Shown: one piece after another, positions 38,829 to 39,482 of the stretch
Numbering within the stretch: position 1 is the first letter of the stretch
Layout: each line of letters begins with the position of its first letter
Source: Populus alba
Taxonomy: Eukaryota; Streptophyta; Magnoliopsida; Malpighiales; Salicaceae
Assembly (NCBI RefSeq): GCF_005239225.2
Contig: NC_133302.1
Coordinates: 10,387,991 to 10,451,990, forward strand
Reading direction: 5' to 3'
Length of the DNA stretch: 64,000 nucleotides
Notes under the pieces: model-generated
Database searches by the model: none
The model's input: the letters and a program-made list of their open reading frames with translations, nothing else
What the model was told of the DNA's origin: nothing
Position numbers and translations under genes: made by a program

Positions 38829-39482
38829 TCACAGATGAAGGCTCAAATCTAATCTAAGCTTTTTACGGCTTTCCTTAGTTGACCAATCTAGGCGACTCAT
38901 GCAGGGATCAATGAAAGGGATGAAAGATTGTAGTTGGTCAATCAATTGTTCAACAGTAACAGTAGAGATTATGATTTGTCGTGCCGAAGATGTTAGAAAT
39001 TCCTGTTCCACAGCTTGATCAAGGAAAGACAGCAACTTATCATAAAAACCATTAACGTTTAACAAACCTATAGGTTTATGGTGAATGTGCAGTTGGGCCC
39101 AAGATGAAATATGAATGATCTCTTCCAATGTGCCCAGACCACCTGGTAAGGCAATGAAGGCATCAGCATGGTTAAACATGGTATTCAGTCGATCAGACAT
39201 TGTTGGGACCTGTAGTTCTTCTCCAATTGTTTTTCCAATGATGTCCCCATTTGCTAAAGCTTTGGGGACAACCCCCAAAACTTGACTGCCTCCCAAAAAT
39301 GCAGCCATTGACACACCTCCCATTAACCCAAGGCTACCTCCCCCATACACTAAATGAATCTTTCTCTCAGCTAGTACCCGACCAAGATGATTTGCTGATT
39401 CTAAAAACTCTTTTTCTTTCCCAGGACTGGATCCACCGAAAACACAAATATTTTTTATGTGATGACTTGAGGAACCTGCCAT
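38829..39482 (-). CDS. LOG: LONELY GUY-like cytokinin riboside 5'-monophosphate phosphoribohydrolase inside a retrotransposon
   Basis: An uninterrupted 217-codon frame. LOG enzymes release active cytokinin bases from their riboside monophosphates in the cytosol/nucleus. The fold signature is complete: CVFGGSS (13-19), LVYGGGSLGLMG (44-55), catalytic-type Arg98 in TMSDRLNTM, the PGGLGTLEE nucleotide/catalytic motif (113-121) with its Glu, and KPIGLLNVNGFYD (136-148). Full length compared with about 215 aa for the family. Departures from classical plant LOGs: Gly replaces Cys in VFCGSS, and Leu99 replaces the Lys after the catalytic Arg; the C terminus is KKLRLDLSLHL. Plant LOG genes usually have several introns and this has none. 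It is co-oriented with the element and preceded by a TATA-like box. Activity is plausible but untested. Confidence 0.9.
   Translation of the reverse strand: MAGSSSHHIKNICVFGGSSPGKEKEFLESANHLGRVLAERKIHLVYGGGSLGLMGGVSMAAFLGGSQVLGVVPKALANGDIIGKTIGEELQVPTMSDRLNTMFNHADAFIALPGGLGTLEEIIHISSWAQLHIHHKPIGLLNVNGFYDKLLSFLDQAVEQEFLTSSARQIIISTVTVEQLIDQLQSFIPFIDPCMSRLDWSTKESRKKLRLDLSLHL

Follow-up and report, generated by a model that had tools for sequence, protein, structure and literature searches.

A LOG-type gene and a carlavirus-type gene carried together by a high-copy LTR retrotransposon of Populus alba

We show, by comparison of genomic copies, that a gene of the LOG (phosphoribohydrolase) family found in the window, that is, in the whole 64,000-nucleotide stretch of Populus alba DNA analysed here, is carried as an accessory gene throughout a high-copy, putatively Athila-type family of LTR retrotransposons in Populus. 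In these elements it lies beside a second cargo gene predicted to encode a carlavirus-type nucleic-acid-binding, cysteine-rich protein (NABP). The original prediction, in which a cytokinin-activating LOG gene was carried by a mobile element of a kind not previously described, proved half right: the mobile, many-copy and constrained LOG gene stood up to analysis, whereas the absence of a described family and the cytokinin-activating character did not. Neither of the outcomes named beforehand as telling against it, a lone neutral copy or LTRs belonging to two insertions, was found.

The element, its copies and its precedents

The LOG gene lies within a single LTR retrotransposon insertion of about 11.8 kb on the minus strand (35873-47699), with GCAGT target-site duplications on both sides and paired LTRs whose ends are TG...CA [Table 1]; as originally proposed, it is thus part of the mobile unit. 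A derivation of the two LTRs from separate insertions was ruled out by the matching duplications and by another copy of the element with a duplication of its own. The LTRs, of 1,723 bp each, show mismatches at 10 of 1,719 aligned columns, with 8 gap columns and a K2P divergence of 0.0058, which under assumed rates would place the insertion roughly 0.2-1.2 million years ago. Gag, protease and RT-RNaseH-integrase follow one another in Gypsy order, then NABP, LOG and the 3' LTR, all in the same sense. The frames of the window copy are broken, gag changing frame between about 45.2 and 45.4 kb and integrase having a stop at about 41,060 past which it remains readable; because gag-pol is broken, this copy is not an intact element. 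The primer-binding site agrees at 16 of 18 positions with the complement of what we take to be the tRNA-Asp 3' end, as expected for Athila, and points to an Athila-type lineage. An imperfect 101-bp tandem duplication (74%) occupies 37929-38180, between LOG and the 3' LTR, and a host-type gene with an MFAP1 domain (E 7.3e-77) lies at 51628-52827 on the minus strand, about 4 kb past the element's 5' LTR end.

Table 1. Features of the retrotransposon insertion in the window
Feature	Position	Strand	Basis or remark
Target-site duplication GCAGT (left)	35868..35872	.	sequence
3' LTR (element sense)	35873..37595	-	1,723 bp
Polypurine tract adjoining 3' LTR	37596..37607	-	sequence
LOG-type gene, 217 aa	38829..39482	-	Pfam, structure matches
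LOG codons 206-217, basic patch and LDLSLHL (EAR-type LxLxL tail)	38832..38867	-	alignment
TATAAAT, 72 nt upstream of LOG ATG	39548..39554	-	promoter role inferred
Carlavirus-type nucleic-acid-binding (cysteine-rich) protein (NABP) gene, 182 aa from ATG	39741..40289	-	Pfam
pol: RT, RNase H, integrase start (integrase frame stops early)	41060..43573	-	Pfam, ORFs
Remaining gag and aspartic protease, different frame	43552..45255	-	Pfam, ORFs
First part of gag	45186..45866	-	Pfam, ORFs
Primer-binding site, 16/18 to complement of tRNA-Asp 3' end	45953..45970	-	sequence comparison
5' LTR (element sense)	45977..47699	-	1,723 bp
Target-site duplication GCAGT (right)	47700..47704	.	sequence

The 416-Mb Populus alba assembly surveyed yielded 1,781 first-look candidates for LOG, a number that rules out a lone capture of the gene, and 1,723 for NABP; 150 of each were scored. 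All 150 scored LOG matches were full length with 94-100% identity, and a count from the table gave internal stops in 13 and none in 137. NABP, or a remnant of it, precedes LOG at 30 of 30 loci, the window copy among them, and at 20 of 20 further loci NABP and then LOG were accompanied by an LTR match beyond LOG (at locus L041, a short piece only). The NABP-LOG order thus held at all 50 loci, with NABP partly decayed at some, which bears out the expectation that other copies of the element would carry LOG. A second insertion (L035/L052), flanked by a duplication of its own (CCGTG), has LTRs free of mismatches over 1,708 columns (15 gap columns), a sign of recent movement. For two further copies the 5' LTR was not found as a full match in the DNA around them, and a full LTR pair was recovered from one (L035/L052) of the three copies examined for 5' LTRs.

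The motif TATAAAT occurs within -85 to -55 of the LOG start in all 65 rows examined, which represent 62 distinct places, and the last 80 nt of the LOG leader are 95-100% identical across rows; this motif may represent a LOG promoter, but recent common origin could also account for its conservation. The NABP leader likewise has a block, from -140 to -71 (40360-40430 in the window), that is 97-100% identical among 41 loci and in which a TTTCAG could be a 3' splice site.

Elements carrying LOG domains are already known. The abstract of Steinbauerova 2011 is said to describe two Athila-like elements with similarity to LOGL4. A paper that calls its result 'in line with' Steinbauerova 2011 reports a YgdH/LOG domain in the Gypsy consensuses of two Citrus species, Citrus sinensis and C. 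clementina, and, once its filter is lifted, also of P. trichocarpa (PMC9289625). Those elements resemble ours in being LTR Gypsy elements with a LOG domain and in having Populus as a host; the text of that paper drawn on here names the domain only, with no analysis of NABP, tail, pocket, copies or selection (PMC9289625). Carlavirus-type genes, EAR motifs and a pocket change in LOG-bearing retrotransposons were not met in the open-licence literature searched, and the combination of an EAR-type tail, an altered pocket and a virus-type partner described below appears to be new. Among other systems, an orchid Ty3/Gypsy element with an m6A demethylase domain also has an enzyme as an extra Gypsy domain, although the enzyme and the taxon are different (PMC9289625), and maize Grande gene23 and other aORFs likewise lie between pol and the 3' LTR (PMC7264820). 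Unlike the element LOG, the Grande gene is described as antisense, with its own promoter and no clear similarity to known proteins (PMC7264820).

Pocket, tail and relatives of the LOG protein

The 217-aa LOG frame begins with an ATG and is a genuine member of its family, as predicted: it matches Pfam PF03641 (E 3.9e-37), its nearest solved relative by sequence is AtLOG3 (2a33; E 4.9e-59), and its AlphaFold model (pLDDT 84.7) retrieves 2a33 as the top Foldseek match (E 5e-23). Its PGGxGTxxE motif, catalytic Arg and Glu and modelled fold are those of the LOG family and are common to AtLOG3 and AtLOG8 (1ydh), to which four Populus element relatives are 49-51% and 44-47% identical, respectively. 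The element LOG differs from these two enzymes in the replacement of pocket His, Lys and Glu, in a basic patch followed by LDLxLxL, and in having no introns, which host LOG genes typically have; both its intronless state and its gag-pol sense, read from the frame and the element order, agree with the original description.

Of the pocket set associated with cytokinin activation (Met, His, Lys, Glu, Trp), the window LOG thus keeps Met and Trp only. In CgLOG of C. glutamicum, Arg99 and Glu122 are catalytic, Lys100, which contacts adenine, and Glu125 are adenine/prenyl residues, and alanine substitution of AMP-binding residues nearly abolished phosphoribohydrolase activity, in a passage that gives no mutant-by-mutant list (PMC4979012). 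The catalytic residues correspond to R98 and E121 of the window LOG, and Lys100 and Glu125 to L99 and H124. Relatives (120 listed of 6,708 and 120 listed of 7,412) were assigned by hand, from names and the tree, to Sapindales-type, other, host and Populus-type groups, the last comprising all remaining rows with the window included; the 156 non-Sapindales element-type rows are here termed derived, and four fused or odd rows (P0238, P0239, P0241, P0280) were left out of the pocket and tail table. Among the matches listed, derived rows keep the catalytic Arg in 148 and the catalytic Glu in 152 of 156 cases. The pocket Lys/Glu pair, again among the matches listed, is kept in 10/10 host, 14/17 Sapindales-type and 1/156 derived rows, so changed in 155 of the latter (Lys considered alone is kept in only 2), and in Populus-type rows the pocket His is replaced without exception (134 of 134) by Ser, Phe, Tyr or Pro. 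All 50 Populus loci read, which were selected for resemblance to the window LOG, have Leu/His at the pair and retain the catalytic Arg and Glu. Two of the fused rows, the Xanthoceras predicted proteins P0238 and P0239, hold two LOG units in tandem, in P0238 with a gag-like stretch between them, and are probably gene models running across two elements.

The replacement of Lys and Glu weakens the claim of cytokinin activation, and judging by its pocket residues the element LOG may have an altered or lost activity. An active, cytokinin-releasing element LOG might drive host cell division and so favour transmission through the germ line or meristem; the kept fold, PGGxGTxxE motif and catalytic residues, the purifying selection on LOG and the Lys/Glu pair of most Sapindales-type proteins are in keeping with such a role. 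Against it stand the pocket changes just described and the near loss of activity in CgLOG upon alanine substitution of adenine-binding residues, which include Lys100 (PMC4979012), and we regard it as rather unlikely.

A second peculiarity of the element LOG is its C-terminus. LxLxL and DLNxxP are EAR motifs, of which LxLxL is associated with TOPLESS recruitment, and the window LOG carries such a motif as we take it to be defined. Of 184 LOG matches listed, 133 end in LxLxL or DLNxxP (last 10 residues). Among the matches listed, the tail is present in 116/134 Populus-type, 18/22 other element-type and 0/17 Sapindales-type rows, many tail-less element-type rows being shortened frames, and LDLxLxL was absent from all 8 host database proteins; the two Arabidopsis rows (AtLOG3, AtLOG8) stop before the C-terminus and were excluded from these counts. 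Across 23 rows that bear the tail, Leu is invariant at positions 213 and 215 and is present in 22 rows at 217 and in 19 at 211, while positions 214 and 216 vary, part of the invariance being due to the choice of rows that bear the tail; in the same rows, so chosen, mean entropy is 1.84 in the linker before the tail, 0.88 in the core and 0.74 in LDLxLxL.

A short LxLxL can have other meanings, and the conserved tail could instead be another targeting or assembly signal, serving nuclear import or export, gag binding or LOG oligomerisation. The basic residues that come just before the leucines in tail-bearing rows would suit a signal of this kind, as would the 12 of 17 Sapindales-type proteins, among the matches listed, that end in the basic patch without leucines. 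The LxLxLxL spacing right at the C-terminal end, with the positions in between left free, is however the classical EAR pattern, the region before it (residues 204-211) is disordered in the model (under pLDDT 50), and a signal other than EAR seems to us improbable. The EAR reading nevertheless does not cover the whole clade, since Sapindales-type LOGs are without the motif and mostly have the classical pocket. One protein (P0258) has the tail together with a classical pocket, so that the tail may predate the pocket change; alternatively, the tail was lost in Sapindales-type proteins.

The prediction that element-borne LOGs would form one clade was largely upheld. A tree of 51 rows places all 40 element-type LOGs in a group apart from 10 host LOGs, none of them from poplar, with support 98/94; the 40 come from Populus, Xanthoceras, Acer, Reevesia, Parasponia and other sources, most non-Populus rows being so labelled by sequence rather than by surrounding element. 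A 31-row tree gave the same clade (98/97.9), although two alternatives to a single-capture clade survive the AU test (p 0.066 and 0.333). When a piece of AtLOG3 was used to look for exons of host LOG genes, the 150 scored matches had 51-56% identity, as expected for element copies, and no host gene stood out. In Xanthoceras, the LOG P0254 and the NABP P0087 have consecutive locus tags (ACOSQ2_032186 and 032187), and in three further NABP/LOG pairs the longest contig is of the same size within the pair (4,511; 8,723; 3,394), which suggests that the two genes are linked there as well. Three poplar proteins named 'LOGL10' in public records (P0210, P0233, P0267) have the element-type pocket and tail and, on this likeness, are likely to be transposon genes annotated as host LOG.

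The virus-type partner and selection on the two genes

The second cargo gene, which had escaped the original prediction, encodes a protein that passes both Pfam cut-offs (PF05515/PF01623; 31.6 against 23 and 26 against 20.9 bits). Its listed relatives (120 of 565) span Populus, Xanthoceras and many other sources; in an alignment of the window protein with 33 of these 120, 31 of the 34 members, window included, match PF05515 and PF01623 at E 0.01. A basic patch followed by a cysteine cluster is common to this protein and the cysteine-rich NABPs of carlaviruses and allexiviruses (PF05515, PF01623), from which it differs in being borne by a retrotransposon and in matching in its central part only; it is on these Pfam matches over part of the protein that the putative carlavirus link is based. 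Viral proteins of the family are described as silencing suppressors, one of them being a transcription factor that causes hyperplasia (PMC12172455). A scan of viral contigs with LOG and NABP found no relatives, and the structure model of NABP (pLDDT 49.5) was left unused.

Comparison of copies shows LOG and NABP to be both under purifying selection, with pN/pS below 1 for LOG as anticipated. LOG was sampled through every 7th entry, from 7 to 140, of the NABP list (n=20), since ranking by LOG biases its pN/pS downwards, and a value of about 0.19-0.20 from LOG-chosen loci was set aside as biased. With restriction to indel-free frames leaning both estimates towards constraint, pN/pS was 0.32 for LOG (bootstrap 0.17-0.66; 11 intact copies of 20 NABP-chosen loci, 3 of the 11 being places also among LOG-chosen loci) and 0.30 for NABP (0.20-0.45; from the 19 of 30 LOG-chosen loci whose copies are free of indels, 4 of these having stops).

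At the other NABP-chosen loci LOG was broken or cut (6 of 20) or deleted with an identical junction (3 of 20; L055, L071, L073). With up to 2 mismatches tolerated, the 35-base deletion junction occurs at 65 genome places, of which 40 are exact, and its reversed control at none, and 24 of the 65 directly adjoin one of the 150 listed NABP matches, as read from the tables. Elements keeping NABP have therefore spread without LOG, which is dispensable in cis. That LOG is a mere passenger, a host mRNA captured long ago and copied along, its constraint reflecting few recent source copies, would agree with these broken and LOG-deleted copies but is very doubtful given the upper bound of its pN/pS, the retention of full frames and leucine tail between sequences only about 60% identical, and first-look candidate counts that are about the same for LOG and NABP.

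A possible host-directed module

A regulatory module broader than hormone activation alone is suggested by the tail motif together with the virus-like gene. With constraint, tail, pocket change and viral relatives of NABP counted in its favour, we give an even chance to the proposal that LOG and NABP form an accessory module directed at the host nucleus. The element LOG would then work in the nucleus as a 'LOG-EAR' protein, recruiting or titrating a corepressor of the TOPLESS class and either hydrolysing a changed nucleotide or only binding it. NABP would dampen RNA silencing or act as a transcription factor, and the two together would increase the permissiveness of the host cell towards the element. 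Because the LOG-deleted subfamily also spread, LOG may be a helper able to act in trans. A bolder version, in which a captured hormone enzyme with a rebuilt nucleotide pocket has been turned into a TOPLESS-recruiting nuclear effector and paired, in the manner of pathogen effectors, with a silencing suppressor or transcription factor of plant-virus type, is possible and we put it forward tentatively.

The LOG-bearing family appears to occur in several rosid lineages and, in a single poplar genome, numbers more than a thousand candidate copies. Some poplar 'LOGL10' annotations may be transposon genes, not to be counted as host cytokinin genes. If the proposed module is real, it would show that selection can maintain accessory genes acting on the host in a plant LTR retrotransposon, as it does in retroviruses. 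The great number of copies, the LOG-deleted subfamily as a natural control and the predicted TOPLESS binding would make the family a system in which to test this.
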